A stretch of 47,330 nt of DNA from IMG/VR virus record IMGVR_UViG_3300006789_007485, positions 1 to 47,330 of that record; one strand, written 5' to 3'. The DNA is from a virus. The position numbers and the translations under genes are program-made. A model generated the notes under the pieces. That model saw nothing but the letters and a program-made list of their open reading frames with translations, searched no databases and was not told where the DNA came from. Shown piece after piece: positions 35,251 to 47,330 of the stretch (within the stretch, counting starts at the first letter, position 1; the number at the start of each line of letters is the position of its first letter).

Positions 35251-35427
35251 TTAAGCCAGAAACTGCTTTCGCGGTAGCTCTGCATATAACCACGGCAATC
35301 CGCAGCAATCCACAACCATTGTTTTTAAGCGAAAAACAGTTATCACGGTGGCTCTGTATATAACCGCAGCAATCCGCAGCAATCCGCAACCATTGTTTTT
35401 AAGCTAAAAACTGCTTTCGCGGTGGCA
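35251..35427. repeat. 74-bp tandem repeat, 2.4 copies
   Basis: Units start at TTAAGC at 35251, 35325 and 35399 (period exactly 74 bp). Each unit reads through a CTGCTTTCGCGGTGGCT-like word, TATATAACC, and CGCAGCAATCCGCA with internal AGCAATCCGC sub-repeats. Copies 1 and 2 differ by roughly ten bases. Copy 3 breaks off inside the word GCGGTGGC, exactly where the first TGGCAC-containing DNA of the cassette region begins. Confidence 0.85.
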
Positions 35428-35523
35428 CGCCGCGTGCCAACACGCAAGGCTCCCAGGGTAACATATAAATATATATTTCTGCGATTGCCCGATACGTTGG
35501 CACGATTCTCCGGGTGCAAAAAA

Positions 35524-35560
35524 GTTACGATAAAACAGTCCTACTCTATATCTAAGTGCA
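35524..35560 (+). promoter_or_regulatory. P-element copy 1 (promoter-like)
   Basis: First of 13 copies of the element: TTACGATAAAACAGTC followed by CTCTATATCTAAG. It lies about 45 bp before ATG 35607. Between them is a GCGGGG...CCCCGC hairpin. Confidence 0.65.
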
Positions 35561-35606
35561 AGCGGGGCAAAAGAAACACTGACTCCCCGCAAGAAAGGCT
35601 GAGACA

Positions 35607-36230
35607 ATGGCGAAGAACGCATTTGAGACCGAGGCTTCCTGCATTGCTTTCGAGCAGACCAACGGCGCAGCCCTCGACCCGCGCGACGCCCACGGGGCCA
35701 TCCGGTTGTGGATGGGTGACAGCGCCGACCGCCTGCCGCCCGCGAAGGACGGCATCTGCAAGAAGGGTGGGGTCGACCGCTTGGGCCGGCCGCTCCAGAA
35801 GGGCCGCGGGCACGGCGTGTTCGACATGGTGCTGCCCTGGAAGTCCCCCTGCGGAACCATCGTGGAAATGGTGCCCGTGTCCCTCAAGGGCAGCAAGGGC
35901 AACGGCTACGGCAACCGCGACCTGACGATGTACGACGAGGTAGTTATCGACCACGCCGAGGCGGGCCGCGCCCTCTGGGTCTTCCTGCTCCGCGAGGAGG
36001 CCGGAACCCTCCTCATGCGGCGCGTGGACGCCTCGCGGGTCATCCGCGAGGGCACCGAGGGTCACCACTGGTTCGTCCGGCAGGACAACCGGAAGGTCGG
36101 GGAGCGGGTCTACGAGTACACCCGCCTCCGCATCGAATGGAGCCGGGTCGCGAAGGACGCGGGCCACCTGTTCGCGGACGCGGACTGGACCCCCTTCCGG
36201 GCCAGCCTGGACACCGATCGCCCCTGGTAA
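35607..36230 (+). CDS. Hypothetical protein (207 aa), GC-rich cassette gene
   Basis: GC content is far higher than in the first 34 kb (roughly two thirds GC). The protein is soluble and mixed alpha/beta, and no family is recognised; it starts MAKNAFETEASCIAFEQ, contains GHGVFDMVLPWKSPCG and ends ASLDTDRPW. The long ORF on the opposite strand has poor composition and is a shadow. A P-element lies upstream, and a strong hairpin terminator with an inverted GGGCAAAA box follows. Confidence 0.75.
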   Translation: MAKNAFETEASCIAFEQTNGAALDPRDAHGAIRLWMGDSADRLPPAKDGICKKGGVDRLGRPLQKGRGHGVFDMVLPWKSPCGTIVEMVPVSLKGSKGNGYGNRDLTMYDEVVIDHAEAGRALWVFLLREEAGTLLMRRVDASRVIREGTEGHHWFVRQDNRKVGERVYEYTRLRIEWSRVAKDAGHLFADADWTPFRASLDTDRPW

Positions 36231-36253
36231 GGGCAAGTCGGGCACCCCCGAGG

Positions 36254-36285
36254 AGCCCCGGAGCCTTTCGGCTCCGGGGCTTTTT
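36254..36285 (+). terminator. Intrinsic terminator of the 35607 gene
   Basis: 12-bp stem AGCCCCGGAGCC/GGCTCCGGGGCT with a TTTC loop and T5 tract; followed at once by TGTCAATTTTTTGCCC, an inverted GGGCAAAA box. Confidence 0.9.
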
Positions 36286-36760
36286 CGTGTCAATTTTTTG
36301 CCCGGCTGCGTGCGAGTGTACGCAAGGAGTGTGCCAACTTTTCGCAGTAAAGTCTTCTCTTTCGTGCCAGGGCCTCTGGGCAAAAGATTTTCATGCCAAT
36401 TTGGCATGATGTGTGCATACGCTCAAATTTCGCAGATTTGTTTTTTTTGTTCCCTAGGGAATAAATTAAACTTTCCGAAGCTCTTTTTTTTGCCTTGAAA
36501 TAAACTGGCACATTTCTTGCACATGCACGTATGGTGCCAGTTTATGTACATGCTTTGGCACACTTTATGCAGACGATCCTACGGCTGGCACACTTGGGCA
36601 AAAGATTTGCATTTCTAGGCTGGCACGTATGGGCATGTAACTTGCATATGCACAGCGCGTGCCAAGGTGAAATAAAGTTTTCAAAAGAAAAAGAATAGGT
36701 GGCACGCTTCGTGCATCGGACGCACACACGCGCTTGGGCAAAAGCTGGACATAAATATCT
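36286..36760. promoter_or_regulatory. Composite regulatory spacer with GGGCAAAA boxes and sigma-54-like sites
   Basis: About 500 bp without a gene. It contains an inverted box at 36289-36304, forward boxes near 36378, 36597 and 36736, and four plus-strand sites matching TGGCAY-N5-NTGCA: 36506-36522 (TGGCAC-ATTTC-TTGCAC), 36556-36572, 36700-36716 and one at about 36402 (TGGCAT-GATGT-GTGCAT). A minus-strand match lies at 36320-36336. The pattern equals the -24/-12 consensus of sigma-54 promoters. Whether all are active is unknown; decayed copies from lost cassettes are likely. Confidence 0.65.
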
Positions 36761-36795
36761 CTGCGGAACAGTCTTCCACTATATCTAAGCGTAAG
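36755..36795 (+). promoter_or_regulatory. P-element copy 2
   Basis: TATCTCTGCGGAACAGTC followed by TTCCACTATATCTAAGCG, preceded by a GGGCAAAAGCTGGACATAAA box. The 60 bp from the core onward are duplicated almost exactly before the gene at 37654. Confidence 0.68.
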
Positions 36796-36800
36796 AGGGA

Positions 36801-36833
36801 ATGACCCCGACTACCACAAAAGAGGTTTCTTGA
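36801..36833 (+). CDS. Possible 10-aa leader peptide
   Basis: ATG directly after GTAAGAGGGA encodes MTPTTTKEVS and stops 2 bp before the ATG of the next gene. It may couple translation. In the duplicated copy at 37620 the same ATG does not stop but runs across the next gene, so a peptide function is not conserved; the conserved part may be only the 5' leader RNA. Confidence 0.3.
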   Translation: MTPTTTKEVS

Positions 36834-36835
36834 AA

Positions 36836-37222
36836 ATGGACAATCCCTATGAGGCGCTGCGAAAGGCGCTTTACGTCGAATTCGCAAAGAAGCTGTTTCC
36901 GAAGGGCACCTACGAGGGTCAGCCGGAAGTCTCCAAGATTCAGCTGATCAAGGCTTACCGCGATGCGAAGCCCGAGACAACGCTGCGGGAAGCCAAGGAT
37001 GCGGTTGACGCCATGCTGGCCCCGCCGCCCGCCGAGGAGTCGAGGGCGAAGTTCGCAACCTACAGGGTTGAGGCCGGATGGGGACACGAATACCTTGTGG
37101 CGTGGACGATGGATTCCGCCATAAAGATGGCGTGGGAAAACTACTGCAAGGCCGAAGACTCGCAGGTCTCCTTCCGGGATTTCCGCATCTTCGCGAAGGT
37201 GGAGCGGGTTCCCTCCCCCTAG
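36836..37222 (+). CDS. Hypothetical protein (128 aa), cassette gene
   Basis: Soluble alpha/beta protein. The first half is helical (YEALRKALYVEFAKKLF), the second half has VEAGWGHEYLVAWTMDSAI. No family recognised. ATG 36836 is preferred over TTG 36830; the nearest ribosome site is AAGAGG at about 10 nt. It lies between a P-element and a strong terminator. Confidence 0.72.
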   Translation: MDNPYEALRKALYVEFAKKLFPKGTYEGQPEVSKIQLIKAYRDAKPETTLREAKDAVDAMLAPPPAEESRAKFATYRVEAGWGHEYLVAWTMDSAIKMAWENYCKAEDSQVSFRDFRIFAKVERVPSP

Positions 37223-37236
37223 GGAATCTCCCCTTG

Positions 37237-37275
37237 AAATCCCCCGGTCCGAAAGGACCGGGGGATTTGCCGCTT
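37237..37275 (+). terminator. Intrinsic terminator
   Basis: 14-bp stem AAATCCCCCGGTCC with GAAA tetraloop, then GCCGCTTTT; immediately followed by TGTCAAGTTTTTGCCC (inverted GGGCAAAA box, 37281-37296). Confidence 0.9.
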
Positions 37276-37576
37276 TTAAATGTCAAGTTTTTGCCCGGGA
37301 CCCGGGGGGCGGAAGCTGCAAGGCTCGTGCCAAGTCTGGATCCTGCGCAAATTTCTTGCATCCGCCTGGGCAAAAAATTTACAGAGTATATGCGTGTGCG
37401 TTGGCACGAGACTTGCAAGTGCAAAGTCTGTGCCGGAAGTCTTTTCGCTTCTTGATAAGATATTTCTGGGCAAAAGATTTACACTTCCAAATTTGTTTTC
37501 GGTTGCTTTGGACTGGCACAAATCGTGCATAAGTGCGTGAGGCTAGTGACTTCGGGCAAAAACTGCACAGAAAAAA
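37276..37576. promoter_or_regulatory. Composite regulatory spacer
   Basis: Inverted GGGCAAAA box at 37281-37296, forward boxes at about 37369, 37470 and 37554, and sigma-54-type sites at 37402-37418 (TGGCAC-GAGAC-TTGCAA) and 37514-37530 (TGGCAC-AAATC-GTGCAT), plus one on the minus strand at 37317-37332. The two plus sites follow forward boxes by about 33 and 44 bp. Confidence 0.65.
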
Positions 37577-37615
37577 TTACGATAAAACAGTCCTCCACTA
37601 TATCTAAGCGTAAGA
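37577..37615 (+). promoter_or_regulatory. P-element copy 3
   Basis: TTACGATAAAACAGTC then CTCCACTATATCTAAGCG; the following leader (to 37650) is nearly identical to that at 36791-36831 and carries the AAAGAGG ribosome site of the next gene. Confidence 0.68.
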
Positions 37616-37653
37616 GGGAATGACCCCGACTACCACAAAAGAGGTTTCTTACC

Positions 37654-37920
37654 ATGTCCGACCGCATCAGCAACAACGTTTTCGCCTCCAACGACTTCTC
37701 CTTCGGCCTCGCCTGCGAGCGGGCCGGCATCCCCACCACCGGACGGCAGGCGGGCAAGTACCGTCGCGGGATGGGGCAGGCGTGGGCCTCCCGCCCGACC
37801 GCCGTGGACCTGGGCAAGCTGACGGTGCCGAAGCTCCGCGAGGCGGCCCAGCGGTCGGGCATCGCGGTCCCCTCCCGCGCCCGGAAGGCGGACGTCATCG
37901 CTGCCCTGCTGGGCGAGTAG
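37654..37920 (+). CDS. SAP/Rho-N-like small protein (88 aa)
   Basis: The C-terminal 38 residues (LGKLTVPKLREAAQRSGI, then RARKADVIAALLG) match the helix-extended-helix pattern of SAP and Rho-N nucleic-acid-binding domains. The N-terminal 50 residues are Arg/Gly-rich and not recognised. It likely binds DNA or RNA. GC-rich cassette gene; the overlapping frame starting at 37620 is a shadow. Confidence 0.75.
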   Translation: MSDRISNNVFASNDFSFGLACERAGIPTTGRQAGKYRRGMGQAWASRPTAVDLGKLTVPKLREAAQRSGIAVPSRARKADVIAALLGE

Positions 37921-37933
37921 CCCTCGCCCCCCT

Positions 37934-37962
37934 GCCCCCTTGGCTTCGGCCAAGGGGGCTTT
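37934..37962 (+). terminator. Intrinsic terminator
   Basis: 11-bp stem GCCCCCTTGGC/GCCAAGGGGGC with a TTCG tetraloop and a short T run, after the SAP-like gene. Confidence 0.85.
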
Positions 37963-38016
37963 GTGGGTGCAAGCTGAAGCTGAGACTTGCAATACTTTTG
38001 CCCCAGGAGAAATGAA

Positions 38017-38388
38017 ATGCCGACGAGCCCTTACTCTGACTTCATCGGGACGACGATTCTTGACGTGAATCACGGAAAGAATGTTATCTCCTTCGTGACC
38101 GACCGTGGAACCTGGGTGATGCAGCACTGGCAGGATTGCTGCGAGGACGTGTACATCGAGGACGTGAACGGAGACCTCTCCAGCCTCATCGGCGGGCAAG
38201 TCGTCGTCGCGGAGGCACGCTCAAGCGGACTCAACCCGGACGACCCCGAGGCGGAAACCTATGAGGATTTCTTGTGCGTGTGGACCTTCTACACGATTCG
38301 GACCACGCGCGGGGACGTGACCATTCGTTGGTACGGAGAAAGCAACGGCTATTACGCGGTCGATGTAGACTTCGACCGCGAAGAATAG
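38017..38388 (+). CDS. Hypothetical protein (123 aa), cassette gene
   Basis: Acidic beta-rich protein (start MPTSPYSDFIGTTILDV; WVMQHWQDCCEDVYIED; later DVTIRWYGESNGYY). No family recognised with certainty. ATG 38017 has AGGAGA 6 nt upstream. No P-element lies directly upstream; only a box-like CTTTTGCCCC stands before the ribosome site, so it may be read from the SAP-gene promoter. Confidence 0.72.
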   Translation: MPTSPYSDFIGTTILDVNHGKNVISFVTDRGTWVMQHWQDCCEDVYIEDVNGDLSSLIGGQVVVAEARSSGLNPDDPEAETYEDFLCVWTFYTIRTTRGDVTIRWYGESNGYYAVDVDFDREE

Positions 38389-38407
38389 CGGCCAACCGAA
38401 AGCCTTT

Positions 38408-38432
38408 TGCCCCGGGAAGCCCCCGGGGCATT
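38408..38432 (+). terminator. Hairpin terminator
   Basis: 9-bp stem TGCCCCGGG/CCCGGGGCA; followed by TGTCAAGTTTTTGCCC, the inverted box (38447-38462). Confidence 0.75.
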
Positions 38433-38671
38433 TGGTCGCATGTAATGTCAAGTTTTTGCCCGGGGTGCAACTGCGCGCTTGTGCATGCTGGCACACTTTG
38501 TGCATATGGTCACATCTGCTACTGTTCGGGCAAAAGTTTAACATCTTTTTCGGCATAGTTTTTGCACTTGCATTTTTCATGCCAAAGCTTCGGGCTGATT
38601 AATATCCTTGAAAAATTGATTGGCATAGTTTTTGCAGCTCAACCATCGGGGCAAAAACTTGACACAAAAGA
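38433..38671. promoter_or_regulatory. Spacer with three sigma-54-like sites and boxes
   Basis: Plus-strand sites: 38489-38505 (TGGCAC-ACTTT-GTGCAT), 38551-38567 (CGGCAT-AGTTT-TTGCAC) and 38621-38637 (TGGCAT-AGTTT-TTGCAG); the latter two share the same central AGTTT. A forward box lies at 38528 and an element GGGCAAAAACTTGACA at 38649-38664, which on the minus strand is the closing box of the ncRNA unit. No gene is visible; most plus-strand sites here have no gene directly downstream. Confidence 0.6.
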
Positions 38672-38929
38672 ACAAAAGAGGCCGCCCCTTCCCGGGGCGG
38701 TTTCTGCGTTAGCAGCGAATCTTTTGTTGCGTGCCAGAGTCCAGGCGCCTTGGCACGCTTTTTGTAATCCCTTTTGTCTCGCTCTTTCGTAGCCTTTGAC
38801 TTGACAGCGCCGCTTTTTGAATGTGGAACAGGAGGAGTCTAACTCGTTGCAGACTGGCTTACTAGTATTGCCAGCCTATCGTGATAGCCCTTCGTCGTCC
38901 CTTTTGCTTTGCCGTTTGTCTCTTGCTCT
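38672..38929 (-). ncRNA. Candidate non-coding RNA unit
   Basis: A minus-strand P-element (38929-38965) points leftward into about 250 bp that has no ATG on that strand and ends in a GC-rich hairpin (CCGCCCC/GGGGCGG, 38682-38700) followed by CTCTTTTGTTCTTTT. Inside are three adjacent stem-loops: CTATC-GT-GATAG (38876-38887), CTGGC/GCCAG (38854-38874 with an 11-nt loop) and GAGT-CTA-ACTC (38834-38844). I could not fit a tRNA or any named RNA family. The closing GGGCAAAA box is where the protein-coding units have theirs. Supported by layout only. Confidence 0.55.
38682..38703. terminator. GC-rich hairpin, likely terminator for the minus-strand unit
   Basis: CCGCCCC-TTCC-(C)GGGGCGG. The plus side has TTTCTG only; the minus side has a T-rich run CTCTTTTGTTCTTTT, so termination is likely leftward. 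Confidence 0.7.
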
Positions 38930-38965
38930 CGCCTAGATATAGTGGAGGACTGTTTTGCCGTAATT
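38929..38965 (-). promoter_or_regulatory. P-element copy 4 (minus strand)
   Basis: On the minus strand: TTACGGCAAAACAGTC then CTCCACTATATCTAGGCG. Its start region leads into the ncRNA candidate. Confidence 0.68.
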
Positions 38966-39140
38966 TTTTTTAGGTTCGGATGGGCAAAAGATTTACCTTG
39001 CAAGATTTGCGCCAATTAGGGCAATCAAAGTAGATTTGTTTTTGTTAAGATTTTGCCCAGATTAGAAGATCTCCTACAAGGAGATGCTAAAAAGGATTGG
39101 CACGGAATTTGATTCGGGGCTTTGGGCAAAAACTGGACAT
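38966..39140. promoter_or_regulatory. Spacer with boxes and one sigma-54-like site
   Basis: A forward box GGGCAAAAGATTTACC at about 38982, an inverted box at about 39042-39057, TGGCAC-GGAAT-TTGATT at 39098-39114 and a forward box with ACTGGACATAAA at 39124. No gene. Confidence 0.55.
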
Positions 39141-39144
39141 AAAA

Positions 39145-39185
39145 ATCACTGTGGAACAGTCCTCCACTATATCTAGGCGTAAGAG
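39145..39185 (+). promoter_or_regulatory. P-element copy 5
   Basis: TCACTGTGGAACAGTC then CTCCACTATATCTAGGCG, with GTAAGAGGGA directly before ATG 39189. Confidence 0.68.
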
Positions 39186-39188
39186 GGA

Positions 39189-39626
39189 ATGTCTCCCTCG
39201 GAGAAAATGAAAATGTTTGATTCACTTTCGGATGCCCAGGTGGCGTGGCTCGCAAACAAGTTGGCGAAGGAGGCGAAGGAGCGCCGTGCCGACCTCGCGC
39301 CCGGAGAGTACCAGACGGGGGAAATCTCCCTGACGGTTCCGGGCGGAACGGTCAAGGTCGGTGATGATGGAGACAAGACGCCCACGGTGTCGGTGCCTCT
39401 GCTGTCCGTCCTGACCATCGCCTTGCATCGGGCGGGATTCCAGCGCAAGGGGATTCTGGACCTCGTGGTGGAGGCTGCGACCACGGCAATCAACGACGGC
39501 AATCAGGTCGGGACCGAACTCGATACGACGGCGATGTACGTCGAAAACGAGATGAAGGCCCTCAAGGCTCGGTTTGCCGCCGACCTCCCGCGAACGTTCG
39601 TGCGCGGCAAGGTCACGGTCAAGTAG
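39189..39626 (+). CDS. Hypothetical protein (145 aa), cassette gene
   Basis: Mixed alpha/beta protein (DAQVAWLANKLAKEAKERRA, then GGTVKVGDDGDKTPTVSVPL). No family recognised. ATG 39189 lies right after the P-element leader; ATG 39207 or 39213, behind GGAG, could be the real start. Confidence 0.72.
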   Translation: MSPSEKMKMFDSLSDAQVAWLANKLAKEAKERRADLAPGEYQTGEISLTVPGGTVKVGDDGDKTPTVSVPLLSVLTIALHRAGFQRKGILDLVVEAATTAINDGNQVGTELDTTAMYVENEMKALKARFAADLPRTFVRGKVTVK

Positions 39627-39634
39627 GAGAGAAG

Positions 39635-39820
39635 ATGCAAAAAGACTGTTTCAATTGCAAGAATGACAAGCCTCTTCCGCGAGGAGGGTTTGCTTGCAGA
39701 GAGTCGTCCGATGGTGTGGTCGCTATGTGGCGTATTCGTCACGGGCGGCCCCCGGCTGGCAAGGATTCTCATCGAAAGATGGAGCACTGCCCCTCGTACA
39801 AGGGACACACGCACGGGTGA
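39635..39820 (+). CDS. Small Cys/His protein (61 aa)
   Basis: Starts MQKDCFNCKNDKPLPRGGF and ends HCPSYKGHTH; two Cys pairs plus histidines suggest a zinc site. Function unknown. It is the second gene of the unit starting at 39189 (8-bp gap) and is followed by a terminator. Confidence 0.65.
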   Translation: MQKDCFNCKNDKPLPRGGFACRESSDGVVAMWRIRHGRPPAGKDSHRKMEHCPSYKGHTHG

Positions 39821-39825
39821 GGGCT

Positions 39826-39858
39826 GAGGCGGCTGGAGTTTTTTCAGCCGCCTCTTTC
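39826..39858 (+). terminator. Intrinsic terminator
   Basis: 10-bp stem GAGGCGGCTG/CAGCCGCCTC around a T-rich loop, then TTTCCCC. Confidence 0.8.
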
Positions 39859-39910
39859 CCCGGGTGTACGTCACTGACTTACCTCAATATTGCTTTCTTC
39901 AAGGAAAAAA

Positions 39911-40168
39911 ATGAAGATTACCCTTTTTTCGTCAGAGCCCTTGCATTTCAGTGAGGAAGATGATGGGTGCGCGCACATCGCCGTGTGTGATGGTCCCGTT
40001 ACGACTGATGTAGATGTTCCTGCGCCCGCCTCCGACGACCTTGGACTGTTCGTAAAGATTCAGTCTTGGTCGGAGTATCTTCTCGGAGACCCCGACGATT
40101 ACGGCCATGCGCTTACAGCCTTGCTCCAAGGAAAGAGGGTAAAGGTCACAATCGAAACGGTTGATTAA
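39911..40168 (+). CDS. Hypothetical protein (85 aa)
   Basis: Acidic small protein (MKITLFSSEPLHFSEEDDG). No family recognised. ATG 39911 has AAGGA upstream. No P-element in front; it may be read from a preceding promoter. Confidence 0.6.
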   Translation: MKITLFSSEPLHFSEEDDGCAHIAVCDGPVTTDVDVPAPASDDLGLFVKIQSWSEYLLGDPDDYGHALTALLQGKRVKVTIETVD

Positions 40169-42342: not shown

Positions 42343-42348
42343 CCTGGG

Positions 42349-42370
42349 GCCTGGGGTTCGCCCCAGCCTT
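42349..42370 (+). terminator. UUCG-capped hairpin
   Basis: CTGGGG-TTCG-CCCCAG with flanking GGC/CC; followed by TTTGGGCAAAA. Confidence 0.7.
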
Positions 42371-42564
42371 TGGGCAAAAATTTTACAAAAATAAAGTTGC
42401 CAGCCGCAAGGGCTGGACTATATATTCTTAACAACCAAGGATTACGCTTTACTTCTTCCATCCAATTCGAACATGCCGGGCGAGGTATCGAAAGAACTCA
42501 TAGGTTCCGATTGAAAATGCCGCGTAAAGAAAAAACTCCAAAGGAGTGCTGAGAACGACGTTCA
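42371..42564. other. Gap between convergent cassettes
   Basis: About 195 bp with no clear gene. A box GGGCAAAAATTTTACA lies at about 42370 and a GACTATATATTCTTAAC word near 42416; no full P-element. Only very short ORFs. Confidence 0.4.
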
Positions 42565-42774
42565 TTAATCTTCCCTTACCTTTTTCCTACAGGCCGTTTT
42601 GCTTCGACGCTTCTTTTCGTCGCCGTGGCTTCCGGCTCCATTTCGGAGAATCATGGCGAGAACAATTTTGTTCCGAGTCTTGACCGTGGGACCCTTGCCT
42701 TGCATGGCGAGTTTTTCGGCCCGCTTTGCCTGGCGCGCTTTACGGCGACGGGCTGCGGATTTTGACTTCGCCAT
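42565..42774 (-). CDS. Small highly basic protein (69 aa), minus-strand cassette
   Basis: Starts MAKSKSAARRRKARQAKRAE and ends RSKTACRKKVRED; about a third Lys/Arg, so nucleic-acid or ribosome binding is likely. On its own strand AAGGAG lies close upstream, behind a P-element. Family not recognised. It is transcribed against its neighbours. Confidence 0.75.
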   Translation of the reverse strand: MAKSKSAARRRKARQAKRAEKLAMQGKGPTVKTRNKIVLAMILRNGAGSHGDEKKRRSKTACRKKVRED

Positions 42775-42789
42775 TTTCTCTTCTCCTTC
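42775..42789 (-). promoter_or_regulatory. Ribosome site and leader of the minus-strand gene
   Basis: On the minus strand: AGAAGGAGAAGAGAAA before ATG; together with the P-element it gives a very short leader. Confidence 0.6.
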
Positions 42790-42828
42790 TTACGCCTAGA
42801 TATAGTAGAAGACTGTTTAGCCGTGATT
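42790..42828 (-). promoter_or_regulatory. P-element copy 8 (minus strand)
   Basis: TCACGGCTAAACAGTC then TTCTACTATATCTAGGCG on the minus strand, driving the basic-protein gene. Confidence 0.68.
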
Positions 42829-43100
42829 TTTTTCCAACTCAGCGGGGCAAAAATCTAACAAATTCTGGGCAAAACCTTAACGGAACCAAATTTGCTTCGG
42901 TTGCAAATCGAAAATCCAACTCAGCGTAATTTGCATGGTACTTCGGCCAAAAGATTCACATTGGAGCTTGGCATGAAAATTGTATTTGCAAGAATGATGC
43001 CAAGAAAAACCGTGCCAGCTTTCGGTGCGGGAAAAGGATTTCTGACTTGGCATGATTTTTGGCGGAAGATGATTGGCGTTTCGGGCAAAAGCTGGACATA
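42829..43100. promoter_or_regulatory. Spacer with boxes and sigma-54-like sites
   Basis: Forward boxes at about 42844 and 42868, one altered box at 42945, sites TGGCAT-GAAAA-TTGTAT at 42969-42985 and TGGCAT-GATTT-TTGGCG at 43048-43064, and a forward box with GCTGGACATAAA at 43083. No gene. Confidence 0.55.
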
Positions 43101-43102
43101 AA

Positions 43103-43142
43103 AATCACTGCGGAACAGTCCTCCACTATATCTAAGCGTAGG
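43103..43142 (+). promoter_or_regulatory. P-element copy 9
   Basis: TCACTGCGGAACAGTC then CTCCACTATATCTAAGCG. A second element follows 75 bp later before the same gene. Confidence 0.65.
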
Positions 43143-43178
43143 AAAGAGCAGAGCGGGAAAAGCTGAGTTAGAAAAAAA

Positions 43179-43216
43179 CTACGGCAAAACAGTCCTGCAC
43201 TATATTTAGACGAGAG
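43179..43216 (+). promoter_or_regulatory. P-element copy 10
   Basis: CTACGGCAAAACAGTC then CTGCACTATATTTAGACG, a slightly diverged copy. It starts a leader of about 105 nt that contains an imperfect hairpin (GAACAAGG/CCTTGCTC). Confidence 0.62.
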
Positions 43217-43320
43217 AAGAGACCGGGGCGAACAAGGCACGAAGTTTTTTCGGGCTACCTTGCTCCAAACCATGTCGGCGCGGCATCGACTTTCAAAAAT
43301 TGCCGTTGGAGAGAATGACC

Positions 43321-43788
43321 ATGACGAACATCTTTGAGACCGAGCACACCGAGAGCCCCCTCCAGACCATCCGAGAGACCATGAGTGTTTCGACCGATGA
43401 CAACGGCACCGCCCTGGTGTCCTTCGCGACCAACCGCGGGAAGGGTTCCGGCGCTCAGTCGATGCCCGTTTCGGAGTTCGGAGACTACGTTTCCGCCCTG
43501 GAGGAGATTGCCGCTTCGGGCATCCCCGAGGCTTCCGAGGCCCGTCTGTCGGCGGCTGAGTCGCTGCGCCAGACCGTGAAGCAGGAGGACGGCATCGTGT
43601 CCTTCCGGGTCCGTTCGGGCAAGGGTGCGAAGCCTGCGAAGGTTCCGGCCGGCGACCTGGGCGACGTGGCGAGCCTCCTGCGCTCGACCGTGGATGCCGT
43701 CGAGGCGGCGGGCTTGAAGCTGGCCCCGCCCGCTCCCGAGGCTGACGAGGCTGACGAGGACGAGGGTTCCAACGAGGACAACGAGTAA
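43321..43788 (+). CDS. Two-repeat acidic-tailed protein (155 aa), cassette gene
   Basis: Two tandem repeats of about 48 residues: VSFATNRGKGSGAQSMPVSE with FGDYVSALEEIAAS, then VSFRVRSGKGAKPAKVPAGD with LGDVASLLRSTVDAV; one repeat of the same kind forms the protein at 41696. The tail is very acidic (DEADEDEGSNEDNE). ATG 43321 or 43315, behind GGAGAG, are both possible. The function is unknown; a small DNA-mimic-like acidic protein is one idea only. Flanked by a double P-element and a long GC palindrome. Confidence 0.73.
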   Translation: MTNIFETEHTESPLQTIRETMSVSTDDNGTALVSFATNRGKGSGAQSMPVSEFGDYVSALEEIAASGIPEASEARLSAAESLRQTVKQEDGIVSFRVRSGKGAKPAKVPAGDLGDVASLLRSTVDAVEAAGLKLAPPAPEADEADEDEGSNEDNE

Positions 43789-43800
43789 TCCGAACAGGGA

Positions 43801-43826
43801 CGAGGGGGCGCGTGCGCGCCCCCTCG
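43801..43826. terminator. GC-rich palindrome after the two-repeat gene
   Basis: 12-bp stem CGAGGGGGCGCG/CGCGCCCCCTCG; no T run, so termination may be weak; followed by TGTAAAGTTTTTGCCC (inverted box). Confidence 0.7.
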
Positions 43827-43979
43827 ATTCCCGCTGCTAAATGTAAAGTTTTTGCCCGCGGTGGGGCTTGCTCTGCGAAAATCATGCCAGATAGCTTTCT
43901 GTGGTTAAACATATACGCGCGAGCGTCTGGCATGATTTTCGCAGAGGTTAAGTTTTTGCCCCGCTGAGTTGAGAAAAAA
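43827..43979. promoter_or_regulatory. Spacer with mirrored sigma-54-like sites
   Basis: A minus-strand site at 43873-43889 and a plus-strand site TGGCAT-GATTT-TCGCAG at 43928-43944 are exact inverted copies of each other; boxes lie outside them at about 43844 (inverted) and 43950 (inverted). The mirror layout would give divergent transcription. Confidence 0.6.
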
Positions 43980-44018
43980 TTACGGTAAAACGGTCCTCCA
44001 CTATATCTAGACGTAAGA
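43980..44018 (+). promoter_or_regulatory. P-element copy 11
   Basis: TTACGGTAAAACGGTC then CTCCACTATATCTAGACG, with CGTAA complementary to the opening TTACG. Confidence 0.68.
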
Positions 44019-44039
44019 AGGGCCGGCTAAGGAGAAGTA

Positions 44040-44078
44040 ATGTTTAAGAAGGCTAACGTATGGAAAAGGCGGCGATGA
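44040..44078 (+). CDS. Possible 12-aa leader peptide
   Basis: Encodes MFKKANVWKRRR; GGAGAAGTA gives a good ribosome site. Its TGA overlaps ATG 44075 of the main gene, typical of translational coupling. Very short, so uncertain. Confidence 0.4.
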   Translation: MFKKANVWKRRR

Positions 44079-44593
44079 CTGTCCGCTACGATGGAAACCT
44101 CTGGGAGCATTCACGGGTGCGGATTGCCCTCAACCGACGAGCCGCCGCCCTTGCATGGGCGGCTTTAGGGGGCGACCTGCCACCCCTCCAGCCCTGCGTT
44201 GATGAAGTCATCCGATGGCTCTGCCGCGACCTCGACACCATCGCCCGCCTGCTCGCGCACCTACTAGAGTTAGGGCCGTTCGCGGAGACACCGTGGCCGA
44301 AGGGTTGGTCGGCGCCGATGCTTGTCCTACACAGTGTGTTCCGAGGCGTCGTTCCACCTGACGCGACGTGGGAGCTGCGTACGGGGGCCAAGATGCGAAC
44401 CGCAAACAGACTCTTTGCTGATGCGGCATTTGGGACTGGTTACCGCGGTCGCTGTGAACAGAGTCTCGCAGAGGGTGGCTGTCTGCTCGTCGCGGTACCC
44501 GCCAAGTTGCCCGATACCCAAGAGCAGGCGCTTGAGGCCGTGACCGAGGTAGTACGGTGGATGCTGGCGAGTGACAAGGAAAAATCACGGTAA
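44075..44593 (+). CDS. Hypothetical protein (172 aa), cassette gene
   Basis: GC-rich gene encoding a helical protein with Trp/Leu-rich stretches (VDEVIRWLCRDLDTIARLL). No family recognised. Start at 44075 is favoured by the overlap with the leader stop; ATG 44060 is an alternative. The stop codon lies within the next P-element, so the two units directly abut. Confidence 0.68.
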   Translation: MTVRYDGNLWEHSRVRIALNRRAAALAWAALGGDLPPLQPCVDEVIRWLCRDLDTIARLLAHLLELGPFAETPWPKGWSAPMLVLHSVFRGVVPPDATWELRTGAKMRTANRLFADAAFGTGYRGRCEQSLAEGGCLLVAVPAKLPDTQEQALEAVTEVVRWMLASDKEKSR

Positions 44594-44622
44594 AACGGTC
44601 CTCCACTATATCTAGGCGTAAG
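44585..44622 (+). promoter_or_regulatory. P-element copy 12
   Basis: TCACGGTAAAACGGTC then CTCCACTATATCTAGGCG. It overlaps the end of the preceding gene and drives the RNA-ligase operon. Confidence 0.68.
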
Positions 44623-44633
44623 AAGGAGAGAGA

Positions 44634-44708
44634 ATGGAACTGACTTCGGGCCAGAGCCCCTTTCCGAGCTGGACTCTCTGCGGCGAGATTTGGAGGACGT
44701 GTGCATGA
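44634..44708 (+). CDS. Small leader ORF (24 aa)
   Basis: MELTSGQSPFPSWTLCGEIW..., directly after AAGGAGAGAG. Its TGA overlaps the ATG of the next ORF (ATGA). It could be a leader peptide or a small protein. Confidence 0.4.
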   Translation: MELTSGQSPFPSWTLCGEIWRTCA

Positions 44709-44794
44709 GCGTCTTTGAAGTTTTTGTAAGATGTGACCACTGTGGACGCTTATACAATCAGTCGTGCGTGTGCTACCACTGTGGAAAGGGTTAA
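44705..44794 (+). CDS. 29-aa zinc-ribbon mini-protein
   Basis: MSVFEVFVRCDHCGRLYNQ then CVCYHCGKG; a compact C-x2-C...C-x4-C (CDHC/CYHC) zinc site in 29 residues. Coupled to the leader ORF. Function unknown; probably binds nucleic acid or a partner protein. Confidence 0.5.
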   Translation: MSVFEVFVRCDHCGRLYNQSCVCYHCGKG

Positions 44795-44796
44795 AA

Positions 44797-44988
44797 ATGT
44801 TTTCTCCTGATGAAAAGGCCGCCGAAAAGGCGGGCAAAGACGCGCACACAAGCGGAATGAGCAGAGATAGGAATCCGCATCAGCCAAAGACAATGCTTTG
44901 GATGTGTTGGAATCTTGGTTGGGACCTTTCTCGAAAAAGAGAAATTCAAGCTTTGGAAGGAATTTATCATGGATATTCAGGGCTTTAG
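44797..44988 (+). CDS. RMF/CrpP-like small protein (63 aa)
   Basis: The pattern A-x3-G-x2-A...G...NPH...W-x2-GW (AEKAGKDAHTSG, RDRNPHQP, CWNLGWDLS) matches the ribosome modulation factor fold, which in bacteria dimerises ribosomes, and phage CrpP-like relatives. Length is right. Here it lies just before the RNA ligase (overlap of 20 bp), so a translation- or RNA-related role in the same operon is likely. The family call is from pattern recognition. Confidence 0.6.
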   Translation: MFSPDEKAAEKAGKDAHTSGMSRDRNPHQPKTMLWMCWNLGWDLSRKREIQALEGIYHGYSGL

Positions 44989-46087
44989 AGAAGCGGCAGA
45001 AGAAGGAATGCTCAAGAGGTCTATTAAGGGGCCTTTTGAGCTTTTCAATTACACTCAAAAGGCAACGGTTGCGGGCGCGTGGACGCCTGTAACGATGGAG
45101 GCTCGCGGGGTTGTTTTTCAGGACGGTCAAATCGTTTGTCGTCCAATGAGAAAGTTTTTCAATCCGCATGAAACTGGGGCAGGTGAAGTTTTTGCCCCGA
45201 ATCTGGCGCTCGTCAAGCTGGACGGAACCCTGATTAACGTCTGGTTCGACTTGAGCGGAAACATGCATGTTTCCACACGCGGAAGCCTTGAGAACGAATA
45301 CATCGACGGAGCATGGAAGATTATTCGGGAAAGAAATCTTGAAGAAATGCTCTCTATGCACCATGATGTGACGTGGAGCTTTGAATATACTTACCCTCAG
45401 AGTCGCTTTTCAAATCCCAGCGTAATTCCGCATGACAAGGAGAGGCTTACTCTTTTGAATATGCGTATGCGTGATGGAGAGGAGATAGATGCCGCTATGA
45501 TTCCCGAATACAATTCGGTAATCTATGCTGACTCAAGCCATTACTATGACCTAGCTGTGTCGGATAGTGGCGAAGGTTTGGCAGAACGAATGGCTGGACT
45601 TGCCAAGGTTTTGCCCTGGCGGGATGAGGGATGGGTTTTGTCGGTTTTTGACGAAGGAAGGAATCACCGAATCAAGGTAAAAGGAAATCAGTATGTTGCA
45701 ATGCACCGAGTCATTCATGGACTGAGGGGTCGAGCCGTTGCCGATGCTTGGTATGCAGAAATGCAGGAAGAATTGGCAGAAATGCTTTACGAGCCTCATT
45801 CGTCTATTCTCTTGGAGAATTTCTCTGAGTATGACCGTGAGTATGCCCGCGCGCAAGATGTGGTGCACGAATGGGTTTCTGGTTATGCAAAGATTGCGGA
45901 CATTGAAAATCGAAAGGACTTTGTAATCCAGGCTCAAAAGGAAATCCCTGAGTATTGGCAGCTTGCTATTACTGAGCAGTTTTCAAATAAGGAGCCGGAT
46001 TACAAGCTCTTTGTTGTAAAGAAGATTACGGGAAAGAATCCCAGGGCTTGGAGTCTGCCAACAACAGATGACGTTGCCCCTGAATGA
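44969..46087 (+). CDS. rnlA: T4 RNA ligase 1-like RNA ligase
   Basis: A 372-residue enzyme of the T4 Rnl1 (RnlA) family. The order of motifs is right: an upstream ARGVVFQDG-like segment with RPMRKFFNPHE, the nucleotidyl-lysine motif LVKLDGTLI (Lys about residue 83), SFEYTY (motif IIIa area), EGWVLSVF (motif IV) and HRIKVKGNQY (motif V). It joins 3'-OH and 5'-phosphate RNA ends with ATP; T4 uses it to reseal tRNA cut by the host anticodon nuclease PrrC. ATG 44969 follows GGAAGGA by 8 nt. A GGGGCAAAAACTTCAC-like box occurs inside the gene (about 45187-45202, inverted), likely chance. Confidence 0.9.
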   Translation: MDIQGFREAAEEGMLKRSIKGPFELFNYTQKATVAGAWTPVTMEARGVVFQDGQIVCRPMRKFFNPHETGAGEVFAPNLALVKLDGTLINVWFDLSGNMHVSTRGSLENEYIDGAWKIIRERNLEEMLSMHHDVTWSFEYTYPQSRFSNPSVIPHDKERLTLLNMRMRDGEEIDAAMIPEYNSVIYADSSHYYDLAVSDSGEGLAERMAGLAKVLPWRDEGWVLSVFDEGRNHRIKVKGNQYVAMHRVIHGLRGRAVADAWYAEMQEELAEMLYEPHSSILLENFSEYDREYARAQDVVHEWVSGYAKIADIENRKDFVIQAQKEIPEYWQLAITEQFSNKEPDYKLFVVKKITGKNPRAWSLPTTDDVAPE

Positions 46088-46100
46088 TGGAGTATAATCT

Positions 46101-46131
46101 GATTCTATAATAAACGCTTTATTATAGAATC
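46101..46131. terminator. Perfect AT-rich inverted repeat
   Basis: 14-bp stem GATTCTATAATAAA with its complement around CGC, directly after the RNA-ligase stop. Low GC and no strong T run, so a hairpin that stabilises the mRNA end is as likely as a terminator. Confidence 0.6.
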
Positions 46132-46160
46132 TTAATTTAATTGGAACTGAAGATTGGGTG

Positions 46161-46316
46161 ATGGAAGCTTCGGGTCTATCCAAGGGTTCTGTTATTGATA
46201 TGGTGAAAGAGTTTAGTGTAAGAAAGCCTAGTCAACTAGAGGCTCCGCTGCCGTTTGACCCTCCAAGGGATCTGTTTCCAAGTGTTCCGGTCTTCGGAAC
46301 ACTCTCCGAGGACTAA
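46161..46316 (+). CDS. Possible small protein (51 aa)
   Basis: Frame open upstream to 46128; starts possible at GTG 46158 or ATG 46161 (MEASGLSKGSVIDMVKEFS). The end is Pro-rich (PLPFDPPRDLFPS). No strong ribosome site, but the codons read like protein and the terminator is right behind it. Confidence 0.4.
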   Translation: MEASGLSKGSVIDMVKEFSVRKPSQLEAPLPFDPPRDLFPSVPVFGTLSED

Positions 46317-46318
46317 TG

Positions 46319-46354
46319 AAAAGGAAGGGCCGAGATATCTCGGCCCTTCCTTTT
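46319..46354. terminator. Perfect palindromic terminator
   Basis: A fully palindromic 36-bp sequence centred on GAGATATCTC with GGCC/GGCC arms and an A-tract on the left and T-tract on the right; bidirectional terminator. Confidence 0.9.
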
Positions 46355-46526
46355 GGGCAAAAACTTCACAGGATCTTCGGGCAAAAACTTAACATTAAAG
46401 CTTGGCACGCGGCTTGCATTAGCAAGAAGGATGCCAGATAAAAAACCATGCCATGATGGCGGGCAATTTTAGTTACTTCAAGTTGGCACGGCGCTTGACT
46501 GGAGGGCGAGAGGCTTATTGCAATAA
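46355..46526. promoter_or_regulatory. Spacer with boxes and two sigma-54-like sites
   Basis: Boxes GGGCAAAAACTTCACA (about 46355) and GGGCAAAAACTTAACA (about 46379), then TGGCAC-GCGGC-TTGCAT at 46403-46419 (best match in the window) and TGGCAC-GGCGC-TTGACT at 46494-46510. Confidence 0.7.
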
Positions 46527-46566
46527 AACGTAATACAATCCAGCCCTGTACTATATTAAAGTGTCA
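46527..46566 (+). promoter_or_regulatory. P-element copy 13 (diverged)
   Basis: ACGTAATACAATCCAGCC then CTGTACTATATTAAAG; the least conserved copy, yet at the expected place before the gene at 46603. Confidence 0.5.
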
Positions 46567-46602
46567 GCTAGTAAAGAGAAGTCAGGGATGCCGGAGGTTC
46601 AA

Positions 46603-46863
46603 ATGGTTTCCATTGAATTTGAGAAGAATCGATATCAGCTTACTCCTAGCGGAGTTTGGATTGGAACTGGAGGCCCGAATGGTGGGCGTTATCCCGGCTT
46701 GTATTGTGCCGCTCCGATGGTTATTTGGCCTGAACTGATTTCGGCAGCAATTACTCAGGGCTATGAAAAGTCTGACTTGGCTCGCGAAGTTCCGAAGAAG
46801 GCTGCAAAGTCTTCGGCAAAGAAGGCTTATAAGAAGCCTGCGAATTCAATCTCTATCTTTTAA
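46603..46863 (+). CDS. Hypothetical protein (86 aa), cassette gene
   Basis: The N-terminal half is beta-rich (RYQLTPSGVWIGTGGPNGG); the C-terminal tail is Lys/Ala-rich (KKAAKSSAKKAYKKPAN), likely DNA binding. ATG 46603 follows CCGGAGG by 5 nt; the frame from GTG 46561 is longer but lacks a ribosome site. Confidence 0.65.
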   Translation: MVSIEFEKNRYQLTPSGVWIGTGGPNGGRYPGLYCAAPMVIWPELISAAITQGYEKSDLAREVPKKAAKSSAKKAYKKPANSISIF

Positions 46864-46892
46864 TTCTAGAATAATCTTCTCGGAGAAATAAA

Positions 46893-47120
46893 ATGGCAAA
46901 GCGTAATGTTGATGATGCGGTTGAGGCGTTTCTTAATGGCGGAGGAAAGGTGGTTCGCCTTCAGTATGCTTCGGAAAAGGAAGTGAGGAAGGCAAGTCGA
47001 GTGTCTTTTCACAAGGACCGAGCCACTACGGGTTCTGAGGCTTCTAAGCAGTTTCTCAAGAGGCGGGAAGACAAAGAGGCGTCTCTTATCTTTTCTCGCG
47101 AAGACCGTTGGAAGCGATAA
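46893..47120 (+). CDS. Small basic protein (75 aa)
   Basis: Helical basic protein (MAKRNVDDAVEAFLNGGGKV, later SFHKDRATTGSEASKQFLKR). Function unknown. GGAGAAATAAA lies before ATG 46893. It shares its unit with the previous gene (29-bp gap). Confidence 0.65.
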   Translation: MAKRNVDDAVEAFLNGGGKVVRLQYASEKEVRKASRVSFHKDRATTGSEASKQFLKRREDKEASLIFSREDRWKR

Positions 47121-47156
47121 CGTAAGCGTGCGCGTGTTTACATAAGGAGTCTCAAA

Positions 47157-47330
47157 ATGATTAAGTACGAAGTTCATGTTTATCCCAATGGAACTAAGCA
47201 TTGGCATCTCAATGGAAAGCTTCACCGAGAAGATGGTCCCGCTATTGAGTATCCCGATGGAACCAAAGAGTGGCGTCTCAATGGAAAGCTTCACCGAGAA
47301 GATGGTCCCGCTTATGAGGGTTCCAATGGA
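47157..47330 (+). CDS. 23-residue repeat protein (3' end outside window)
   Basis: Starts at ATG 47157 after AAGGAG and runs out of the window. It consists of repeats of 23 residues (69 bp) with the core W-LNGKLHREDGPA and a YPDGTK turn; the first two full copies are visible (HWHLNGKLHREDGPA and EWRLNGKLHREDGPA). Such repeats occur in phage and giant-virus proteins of unknown function and resemble MORN-type beta-hairpin repeats. The copies are nearly identical in DNA, so copy number may vary. Confidence 0.72.
   Translation, partial: MIKYEVHVYPNGTKHWHLNGKLHREDGPAIEYPDGTKEWRLNGKLHREDGPAYEGSNG

Follow-up and report, generated by a model that had tools for sequence, protein, structure and literature searches.

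The establishment regulon of pLS20-family plasmids includes operons, ardC among them, that lie behind the near-identical sequences EGeRS1 and EGeRS2, with other clades using quite different sequences (PMC8708921). Cluster K mycobacteriophages have 13-bp start-associated sequences (SAS) at the ribosome site and 17-bp inverted repeats, termed ESAS, with a consensus that varies by subcluster (PMC3203893). The Frpo islands in plasmid leading regions hold clustered counter-defense genes behind repeated single-stranded DNA (ssDNA) hairpin promoters and are linked to conjugation (PMC11541004), and group 2 jumbo phages are described in a review as encoding sigma factors and no polymerase (PMC7824862). 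We analyzed a 47,330-nt stretch of viral DNA (IMG/VR virus record IMGVR_UViG_3300006789_007485, positions 1 to 47,330), the whole of which is called the window below. Its right-hand part contains small genes set among many copies of three repeated parts: a promoter-like element (P), an asymmetric box, and a site of the sigma-54 type. The region is real and well built as a regulatory region. We think it probable, although by no means certain, that a marine jumbo-type phage uses it as its takeover (establishment) regulon, with small genes placed behind copies of a phage-specific promoter.

34749-47330, no strand: proposed takeover zone, which begins at the last core gene and reaches the end of the window, with ~17 kb more in contig G001 (the extension)

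The region is not a member of the pLS20, SAS, or Frpo systems, as the sequences, sizes, or carrier differ. It resembles the pLS20 regulon in having several operons in one region behind near-identical regulatory sequences (here P and the box), in its variable gene content, and in an ArdC gene under the shared control (40398-41297, behind the P-element at 40361). EGeRS1, however, is 420 to 750 bp long with many inverted repeats, whereas the block of the window virus measures ~50 to 80 bp, at most ~117 bp in its longest family, and is made of promoter-like parts; the carrier there is a conjugative plasmid with five such sequences, whereas here it is a phage, and the zone of a distant relative (G005) has 36 promoters. 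As with SAS and ESAS, repeated sites precede nonstructural genes of varied families and the sequence differs between relatives, here between the window virus and G005, but the parts are a promoter, a box, and a sigma-54-type site, and the SAS sequence GGGATAGGAGCCC had no match within two mismatches near start codons in the window. The Frpo islands share the clustering of counter-defense genes behind repeated special promoters; in contrast to their hairpins, none is indicated in six dyads of sigma-54-type sites here, whose variable arms match no better than those of any two half-sites. The likeness to group 2 jumbo phages consists of sigma-70-family factors in G005 and in a third phage (G003), no RNA polymerase found, and a UvsW-type helicase in the window virus; it extends to these genes, and a gp23 capsid search was uninformative, no control being positive. 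L5-type stoperators are many asymmetric short sites in one genome region. The box differs from them in its sequence and its fixed promoter distance, and no integrase was found in four records. A literature search on repeated-promoter islands gave no match.

P-elements and boxes in the proposed takeover zone

P comprises an A-tract, a conserved upstream stretch, a CACTATATCTA-type −10, and a leader with a ribosome site. Its pattern, AGTCYTNNACTATATYTA, had 20 matches in the window at up to three mismatches, against 1.54 expected, and none of 100 shuffles reached that number. Twelve copies with at most one mismatch all fell at 35537 to 44614, and a thirteenth, with two mismatches, at 46542; the other seven matches had three mismatches each and were scattered. 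A looser scan gave six P-like matches in the remaining 34.7 kb of the window. By first-order Markov resampling of the zone, the chance means at up to two mismatches were 0.07 for P (13 observed at 34.7 to 47.3 kb), 0.39 for the box (33 observed in the zone, 2 elsewhere in the window), and 4.4 for the sigma-54-type site (33 and 10, respectively). An earlier note, made from the letters of the window, had described a series of units built from these parts, and the repeated parts are real.

35517-35566, plus: P-element; no box
36750-36799, plus: P-element; direct box 44 nt upstream of TATAT
37569-37618, plus: P-element; direct box 45 nt upstream
38922-38970, minus: P-element; inverted box at 41 nt, no evident gene
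39138-39187, plus: P-element; direct box at 44 nt
40338-40387, plus: P-element of the ArdC unit; direct box at 44 nt
42123-42172, plus: P-element; direct box at 44 nt
42784-42832, minus: P-element; inverted box at 41 nt
43097-43146, plus: P-element, first of a tandem pair; direct box at 44 nt
43171-43220, plus: P-element, second of the tandem pair; no box
43972-44021, plus: P-element; inverted box at 41 nt
44577-44626, plus: P-element; no box, overlaps the 3′ end of the preceding open reading frame (ORF)
46522-46571, plus: diverged P-element, near the G003 form (CGTAATA...CCCTGTACTATAT)

The box, GGGCAAAANNTTNACA, is an asymmetric 16-bp site that occurs in both orientations. At up to one mismatch it had 31 copies in the window, all at 36288 to 46394, and its reversed-pattern control had none; two copies lie inside a gene (45182 and 45601). 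The limits of the zone were drawn as they are because boxes and P-elements at this stringency are confined there. Distances were measured from the first base of the box to TATAT. Among the 13 P-elements in the window, six have a direct box 44 to 45 nt upstream and three an inverted box at 41 nt, and the four at 35540, 43194, 44600, and 46545 have none within 110 nt. When the extension is included, the virus has 21 P-elements, 12 with a box at a fixed distance (seven direct at 44 to 45 nt and five inverted at 41 to 43 nt). A fixed spacing in two orientations is as expected of a protein site that works with a promoter.

36736-36751, plus: box, fixed position before P
37554-37569, plus: box, fixed position before P
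39124-39139, plus: box, fixed position before P
40324-40339, plus: box, fixed position before P
42109-42124, plus: box, fixed position before P
43083-43098, plus: box, fixed position before P
38982-38997, plus: box, inverted relative to the minus-strand P at 38948
42845-42860, plus: box, inverted relative to the minus-strand P at 42811
43946-43961, minus: box, inverted relative to the P at 43995
36288-36303, minus: inverted box past the hairpin of unit 1
37281-37296, minus: inverted box past the hairpin of unit 2
38446-38461, minus: inverted box past the hairpin of unit 3
42006-42021, minus: inverted box past the hairpin of the ArdC unit
43842-43857, minus: inverted box past the hairpin of the PUR-like unit

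Matches to generic sigma-70-type promoters were no more frequent in the zone than by chance (9 versus 7.1 ± 2.9), which argues against P being an ordinary host promoter of this kind. The exact G003 form of the promoter was not found in genome contigs. A scan of the viral collection with CCTSCACTATATCTAG returned 24 stretches; those outside the window virus, G003, and an additional contig (G004) were single matches without the upstream part and were taken as chance.

The earlier note had given every unit one constant frame: box, sigma-54-like site, box, P, ribosome site, one or two short genes, GC-rich terminator, and inverted box. This applies in part, since the box stands at a fixed distance from 9 of the 13 P-elements, four P-elements are boxless, and the full order is not present in every unit. 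We assigned ORFs to P-elements ourselves; 7 of the 11 gene-bearing units have one or two genes as proposed (six single, one double), four have three or more, and one P-element (38948) is geneless. The picture of many small genes under one control system, with P and box before the units, held, as did the inverted boxes past the hairpins (36288, 37281, 38446, 42006, and 43842), some of which have a backward-facing sigma-54-type site. Hairpins at seven of eight gene ends tested were more stable than shuffles (z of −2.5 to −4.6; the eighth, −1.0), but their T runs are short or absent and a terminator scan was mildly above chance (25 versus 17.1 ± 4.6). An Rfam match over a terminator hairpin was below threshold (24.8 bits against a gathering score of 114) and was taken as chance.

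36252-36283, plus: GC-rich hairpin after unit 1
37237-37268, plus: GC-rich hairpin after unit 2
37934-37959, plus: GC-rich hairpin after 37654-37920
38408-38430, plus: GC-rich hairpin after 38017-38388
39826-39854, plus: GC-rich hairpin after 39635-39820
41965-41995, plus: GC-rich hairpin after the ArdC unit
43801-43826, plus: GC-rich hairpin after the PUR-like gene

The geneless P at 38948 (minus strand; 38785-38950) is complete and has an inverted box, and its transcript would carry CCTCC, which is anti-Shine-Dalgarno-like. The downstream RNA folded no better than shuffles (z of −1.1), which leaves a small RNA there unproven.

Sigma-54-type sites

Sigma-54 promoters have −24/−12 elements, TGGC and TTGCA, with GG-N10-GC spacing, and the sites in the zone match this strict spacing. 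For GGCAY-Nk-TGCW in the zone we counted 21 matches at k = 6, none at k = 2 to 5 or 7 to 10, one at k = 11, and 10 at k = 12, the last of which we read as a by-product of dyads. In a scan of the zone and the extension, 30 half-sites with at most one mismatch lay at 35423 to 46436, 17 on the plus strand and 13 on the minus strand. The sites thus end at 46.4 kb, whereas boxes and P-elements go on in G001. The strict form was found nine times in the zone, not at all in the core, and not in the extension, G005, or G003. Six plus-strand sites lie 36 to 40 nt upstream of a direct box. Six pairs of half-sites are convergent with an offset of exactly 18, and one more is a near-palindrome. The dyads were ruled out as hairpins or ssDNA promoters, as their variable arms match at a mean of 1.0 of 5 positions, against 1.9 between any two half-sites.

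36506-36539, no strand: convergent dyad, offset 18
36631-36664, no strand: convergent dyad, offset 18
37402-37435, no strand: convergent dyad, offset 18
38551-38584, no strand: convergent dyad, offset 18
42969-43002, no strand: convergent dyad, offset 18
46403-46436, no strand: convergent dyad, offset 18
36700-36715, plus: sigma-54-type site before box and P
37514-37529, plus: sigma-54-type site before box and P
40286-40301, plus: sigma-54-type site before box and P
42071-42086, plus: sigma-54-type site before box and P
36321-36336, minus: sigma-54-type site facing back to the preceding gene, beside an inverted box
37317-37332, minus: sigma-54-type site facing back
40234-40249, minus: sigma-54-type site facing back
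42038-42053, minus: sigma-54-type site facing back
43874-43889, minus: sigma-54-type site facing back

No sigma-54 activator scored over the cut-off in the five virus records (the highest score, 11.4 bits with E = 0.009, came from both G001 and G002), and one from the host could serve. Among the papers listed on sigma-54, jumbo phages, and phage promoters (10 of 18), none dealt with a phage sigma-54 array, as judged by title and abstract opening.

Comparison with related phages

The window virus is also present in two larger overlapping contigs, G001 (IMGVR_UViG_3300025066_000016; 88,064 bases) and G002 (3300025133_009669; 87,461 bases), which together with the window span ~101 kb. In register, G001 had no mismatch to the window over 9,863 window positions (stretches L014 and L012, with L016 repeating part of L012), and G002 had none over 3,831 (L015). 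Stretches L009 and L011 were out of register owing to a shift; by BLAST, L009 is 99.9% identical across the junction, and in L011 the P and box coordinates keep the same offset. G005 (3300025133_009608; 316,664 bases) is a distant relative reached by a protein search with the gene at 43315, and G003 (3300025103_000004; 211,453 bases) is a third, more distant phage, to which G004 is identical in the single promoter stretch seen. A related-locus search with the protein at 30962 matched only G001 and G002.

The core of G005 is collinear with that of the window virus (36 anchors, with 2 of 630 pairs out of order). These order counts omit the multicopy 43315 family, the 46603/46893 paralogs, and G001:83867 (which matches at 141.8 kb in G005), as well as weak, paralogous, or misplaced core matches (G002:2469, 7473, 11006, 17877, and 19219 and window 19958 and 23172); retaining the omitted rows would lower the collinearity. 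Some homolog lists exclude ORFs of the HREDGP repeat family. Past the last core anchor of G005 (195.6 kb), in the same place as the zone of the window virus, a zone runs from 192 to 160 kb. Its promoter, ATAAATAANNTCGATTYATTAT (ATAAATAAGATCGATTCATTATAG-type), has 36 copies at up to four mismatches in the syntenic 32 kb and is conserved over ~28 nt; the information profile comes from 35 pattern-picked copies, so its height is partly built in. Searching the viral collection with this pattern gave no further contig, and a slightly stricter version matched none of the bacterial or archaeal genome contigs. A sister form, TTTTGATATAAATAATCTCGATTTATTAT-like, has six exact copies at 103 to 143 kb in G005, 5 to 15 kb apart. 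In a by-eye alignment of one copy each at the −10, the P of the window virus (CACTATATCTAAGCGTAAGAGG) and the G005 promoter (CATTATAGGTAAGTGTAAGGGG) have the same base at 17 of 22 positions, and their upstream halves differ. In G003, a third form, AAAAAACGTAATAT...TGCCCTGCACTATATCTAGGCG, occurs eight times on the minus strand at 130 to 211 kb, 5 to 15 kb apart; a looser scan of the whole record for this form gave eight matches, against four for the reversed control. GC content is flat over 130 to 211 kb of G003, and no zone like that of the window was seen there.

Beneath these different promoters are homologous genes. Zone genes with G005 homologs are 35607 (49% identity), 39207 (41%), ArdC at 40398 (40%), the 43315 family (three copies, 56 to 61%), and 46893 (41%), and those in the extension are G001:76636, 81788, 82072, and 82551. 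In the window virus, all eight homologous genes checked have P within 127 nt upstream, and in G005 seven of eight have that genome's own promoter 44 to 82 nt upstream; for the eighth it lies inside the ORF as called. This comparison covers six gene families, some of them multicopy. Since homologs stand behind the promoter of their own genome, the promoters are uniform across many genes within each genome, and the genes beneath them descended or moved separately. The most fitting reading of P is that of a promoter specific to its lineage and serving a takeover regulon. Both phages have the box (21 in G005 at up to one mismatch, against one in the control), and G003 has three.

A proposed takeover regulon

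In the regulon that we propose, small genes, alone or in short operons, would each lie behind one copy of P acting as their promoter. Host RNA polymerase would read P together with a phage sigma-70-family factor, and a box-bound protein, spanning ~29 to 44 or 41 to 56 nt upstream of TATAT, would gate it; in the window lineage, the sigma-54-type sites would add a second layer of promoters or operators. Promoter-leader modules would be copied between units, so that a new gene joins the regulon at once, and the promoter sequence would drift in concert with the phage's own transcription factor. Reading of P by host polymerase with a phage sigma factor is likely, given that G005 and G003 encode such factors and no polymerase was found. 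Sigma-70-family proteins over the cut-off numbered three in G005 (the two longer ones at 137067-137987 and 80741-81571), two in G003, and one in G004. A single-subunit RNA polymerase was not found in G001, G002, G003, and G005, records that may be incomplete (the T7 positive control was found), and the beta subunit of RNA polymerase was not found in G001 through G005 (14 of 14 controls positive). A T7-like reading of the G005 promoter, which in CGATTCATTATAGG resembles the T7 core, was set aside because no single-subunit polymerase was found while the T7 control was positive.

Several observations weigh against this regulon. The ~101 kb of sequence available for the window virus (the window, G001, and G002) yielded no sigma factor. 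Six of its 21 P-elements have no box within 110 nt, and three have a box elsewhere than at the fixed distances. In G005, only 11 of 43 promoters have a box (up to two mismatches) in the 130 nt before them, the nearest one at 31 to 73 nt; given this variability, the fixed spacing is a feature of one lineage. Most zone proteins scanned had no family match over the cut-off. In the gradient of base composition described below, GC content, position, and rank in the unit are confounded.

A more elaborate version, which we regard as unlikely, is a plug-in regulon: the promoter-leader is copied, the promoter turns over with the phage sigma factor, and the genes stay, the window lineage being wired to host sigma-54 through ~30 sites, six exact dyads, and a box regulator at fixed helical positions. 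If the regulon is as proposed, the promoter labels takeover and counter-defense genes by position rather than by homology, and most of the 20 listed zone genes, together with the unnamed genes behind the 36 G005 promoters, become candidates. Two collinear phages in which a whole promoter class differs while the genes beneath remain would make promoter/sigma coevolution testable, and the sigma-54-type array, if functional, would tie infection to host nutrient or stress control.

Genes of the zone

The genes and ORFs of the zone are as follows.

35607-36230, plus: 207-aa protein; GC content at third codon positions (GC3) of 0.92, G005 homolog 49% identical
36836-37222, plus: 128-aa protein; weak L7/L12 C-terminal-like match below the cut-off
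37654-37920, plus: 88-aa protein; HeH/Rho_N-type region, both below the cut-off
38017-38388, plus: DUF7448 protein
39207-39626, plus: 139-aa protein; G005 homolog 41% identical
39635-39820, plus: 61-aa protein
39911-40168, plus: 85-aa protein
40398-41297, plus: ArdC-like antirestriction protein (ArdcN and MPTase-PolyVal), behind the P at 40361
41365-41574, plus: 69-aa protein
41696-41959, plus: 87-aa paralog of the 43315 family
42178-42342, plus: 54-aa protein
42565-42774, minus: 69-aa basic protein
43315-43788, plus: protein with a predicted PUR-repeat-like fold; paralog in G001, three homologs in G005
44060-44593, plus: 177-aa protein
44705-44794, plus: 29-aa ORF
44797-44988, plus: 63-aa protein
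44969-46087, plus: T4 Rnl1-type RNA ligase
46161-46316, plus: 51-aa protein
46603-46863, plus: first gene of a two-gene cassette; diverged copy in G001
46893-47120, plus: second gene of that cassette (with 46603); homolog in G005

ArdC and T4 Rnl1-type RNA ligases are kinds of counter-defense gene. The ArdC-like protein matched its Pfam families with E values of 1.5e-39 and 5e-16, and its phage relatives are 31.6 to 37.3% identical (among the 15 listed of 55). The extension encodes an HAD RNA-repair protein and a PD-(D/E)XK nuclease, and the G005 zone encodes a tRNA nucleotidyltransferase-type protein, a DNA ligase, and a metallophosphoesterase. The suggestion of counter-defense or host-takeover genes in the earlier note is supported in part, as ArdC and the RNA ligase look like such genes; the RNA-repair protein of the extension is likewise takeover-like. 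Relatives of the DUF7448 protein occur in 104 phage records, and a phage tblastn search with the 35607 protein gave no match; a structure model of the latter was poor (pLDDT of 46.6) and was not used. The gene at 43315 is the most-copied gene found. Its product, a predicted tandem repeat modeled with AlphaFold2 (AF2) at a pLDDT of 71.8, best matched human PURA repeats I-II (Foldseek E = 3e-3, with none under 1e-3; VIA-align Z of 7.9 and root mean square deviation of 3.1 over 114 aligned residues). The model suggests that the protein may bind single-stranded nucleic acid, which we take as a lead rather than a finding.

Gene turnover and duplicated units

Six of 20 zone genes have a G005 match, compared with 15 of 46 window core genes. 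Turnover is therefore no higher than in the core and does not set the zone apart. Among the retained single-copy zone genes, only ArdC departs from the common order (2 of 21 pairs discordant), and of the three 43315 copies in G005, two lie on the other strand from most of their neighbors. The earlier note had called for a comparison with related phages to test for gain and loss of whole units. Gene content does differ in G005, yet single-copy order is mostly kept and turnover is like that of the core.

Two units have a second copy in the genome. The products of 43315 and G001:77306 are 94% identical, with 80.5% identity at the DNA level. Their box-P blocks are 92% identical over 78 bp and the genes can be aligned, but BLAST found no match in the leader between block and gene or past the gene. 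In the second duplicate, 46603 and 46893 are 45% and 59% identical to G001:81788 and 82072. Conversely, the unrelated genes 36836 and 37654 have a common leader (window 36767-36831 and 37586-37650; 98% over 65 bp), and in G005 10 of 630 leader pairs were identical at 26 or more of 32 bases, a level that no control pair reached (0 of 630 taken upstream and 0 of 595 taken inside genes). Because leaders are common to unrelated genes and the similarity of duplicates breaks in the leader and at the gene end, the moving piece seems to be the promoter-leader and not a whole framed unit. The zone had been likened to a platform on which whole units are exchanged; differing gene content (6 of 20 matched) and shared leaders fit that idea, but the break of duplicate similarity in the leader and past the gene speaks against whole-unit exchange. 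As for the parallel drawn with integrons, whose cassettes depend on a tyrosine integrase acting on attC, no tyrosine recombinase (PF00589) was found in the four records (controls 14 of 14 positive), which are fragments, so that an integrase could lie elsewhere, and no integron-like engine was seen.

The gradient of GC content

GC3 in the zone ranges from 0.41 to 0.96, against ~0.28 to 0.47 in core genes, and declines steadily as one moves away from 35.6 kb (Spearman −0.81; n = 20; P = 1.6e-5). First genes in a unit have a higher GC3 than later ones (0.73 versus 0.55; P = 0.014). The direction is the same in G005, richest beside the core (rho = 0.53; n = 31 minus-strand promoter-gene rows, in which two genes behind tandem promoters are counted twice; P = 0.002), where genes behind promoters have a GC3 of 0.50 versus 0.45 for other ORFs there (P = 0.004). 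Homologs differ between the window virus and G005: 0.92 and 0.61 for 35607, 0.79 and 0.48 for 39207, 0.72 and 0.61 for ArdC, 0.84 and 0.53 for 43321, and, in the fifth family, 0.47 and 0.53 for 46893. The gradient is best explained by codon adaptation that changes by degrees along the zone, not by gene source, perhaps adaptation toward a GC-rich host tied to expression strength or timing. The two copies at window 43321-43788 and G001 77306-77722 have GC3 values of 0.84 and 0.65, which indicates strong synonymous drift or codon adaptation within one genome.

Alternative explanations

The earlier note attributed the mixed GC content to genes brought in from different donors. The wide range of GC3 relative to the core, and the different values of the two 43315 copies despite 94% protein identity, would agree with such an origin. 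It is nevertheless unlikely, as GC3 is graded by position in two lineages and four of five homologous families have a higher GC3 in the window virus than in G005, so that the value is not fixed to the gene; mixed sources are thus probably not what the variation indicates. The boxes might instead be asymmetric operators for a silencing phage repressor, stoperator-like as in L5-like mycobacteriophages, which would suit a 16-bp asymmetric site with 31 copies in one region, in both orientations and in some cases within a gene (45182 and 45601). Such lysogeny-type repression we hold to be improbable: no integrase was found in the four records, the L5 stoperator motif had five loose matches in the whole window (1.35 ± 1.17 expected; 1 of 100 shuffles reached 5), none of them at a box, and a fixed distance before the −10 suggests an activator, or a repressor bound at the promoter, sooner than roadblocks.

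It is also quite improbable that host sigma-54 promoters mainly drive the genes, with P secondary. The strict GG-N10-GC spacing (21 matches, versus 0 to 1 for k = 2 to 5 and 7 to 11) and the six plus-strand sites 36 to 40 nt before a direct box are what one would look for in that case, but the sites occupy both strands (17 plus and 13 minus), two polymerases would hardly fit on the six dyads at offset 18, no site occurs in the extension and none of the strict form in G005, and no activator scored above the cut-off in five records. Most doubtful is a mobile-cassette origin, in which each unit would be flanked by composite repeats that face inward (sigma-54-type site, ~35 nt, box, gene, box, site), and a transposase or recombinase supplied in trans would use these as terminal inverted repeats. 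Some plus-strand units are indeed bracketed in this way (36700/36736 ... 37281/37317 and 40286/40324 ... 42006/42038), two units have a second genomic copy, and in G005 the 43315 gene has two of its three homologs inverted relative to most neighbors. The duplicated unit, however, lacks a downstream bracket and its similarity breaks off within the leader and where the gene stops; the extension, G005, and G003 lack the strict sigma-54-type part; the single-copy retained genes are mostly in order; no tyrosine recombinase was seen in the four records; and the fixed box-promoter spacing points to transcription. A takeover regulon behind a phage-specific promoter thus remains the explanation that we favor.

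The core and other observations

Left of 34.7 kb, the core has the genes of a large phage, including a piece of a B12-type ribonucleotide reductase with an intein, PhoH, topoisomerase I with an intein, dUTPase, a tRNA nucleotidyltransferase-type protein, and endolysin-like proteins; farther left, G002 adds a UvsW-type helicase, a DnaB-type helicase, PrkA, and ORFs that by eye resemble sugar-modifying genes. At 34.7 kb, GC content per kilobase climbs from about 0.38-0.40 to 0.45-0.59, and the repeated parts start there. An assembly chimera was ruled out because the junction recurs in other contigs and, at the same place, in G005. Exactly at the core/zone boundary lies a tandem repeat, possibly an origin or regulatory site.

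35250-35426, no strand: 74-bp tandem repeats, 2.5 copies

Intein-type domains occur in the ribonucleotide reductase (window 1473-3098), topoisomerase I (11909-15493), and the UvsW-type helicase (G002 23280-25652); the G005 topoisomerase aligns without the insert. The tRNA nucleotidyltransferase-type protein is a core protein in the window virus (23172-25439) and lies within the promoter zone in G005 (189968-191380). G005 also has a transfer-messenger RNA (tmRNA) gene at 135.6 to 136.0 kb, with the tag ANNNNHFYAAALAA, and tRNA-Arg and tRNA-Leu ~9 kb off. Proteins with tandem WHLNGKLHREDGPAxE repeats (DUF6745/MORN-like) have many copies in two distantly related phages (window 47157-47330, G001 70.2 to 88 kb, and G003 202 to 211 kb). 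Finally, a segment of the type LATHLDERGLAKEADYLD, often N-terminal, is common to otherwise different proteins (window 8418, 33959, and 34401; G005 144 to 161 kb and 195 kb; and G003). The strict pattern matched five G005 ORFs, one of the window virus, and two of G003, the remainder being found by BLAST or by eye, and the segment could be a targeting or docking tag.

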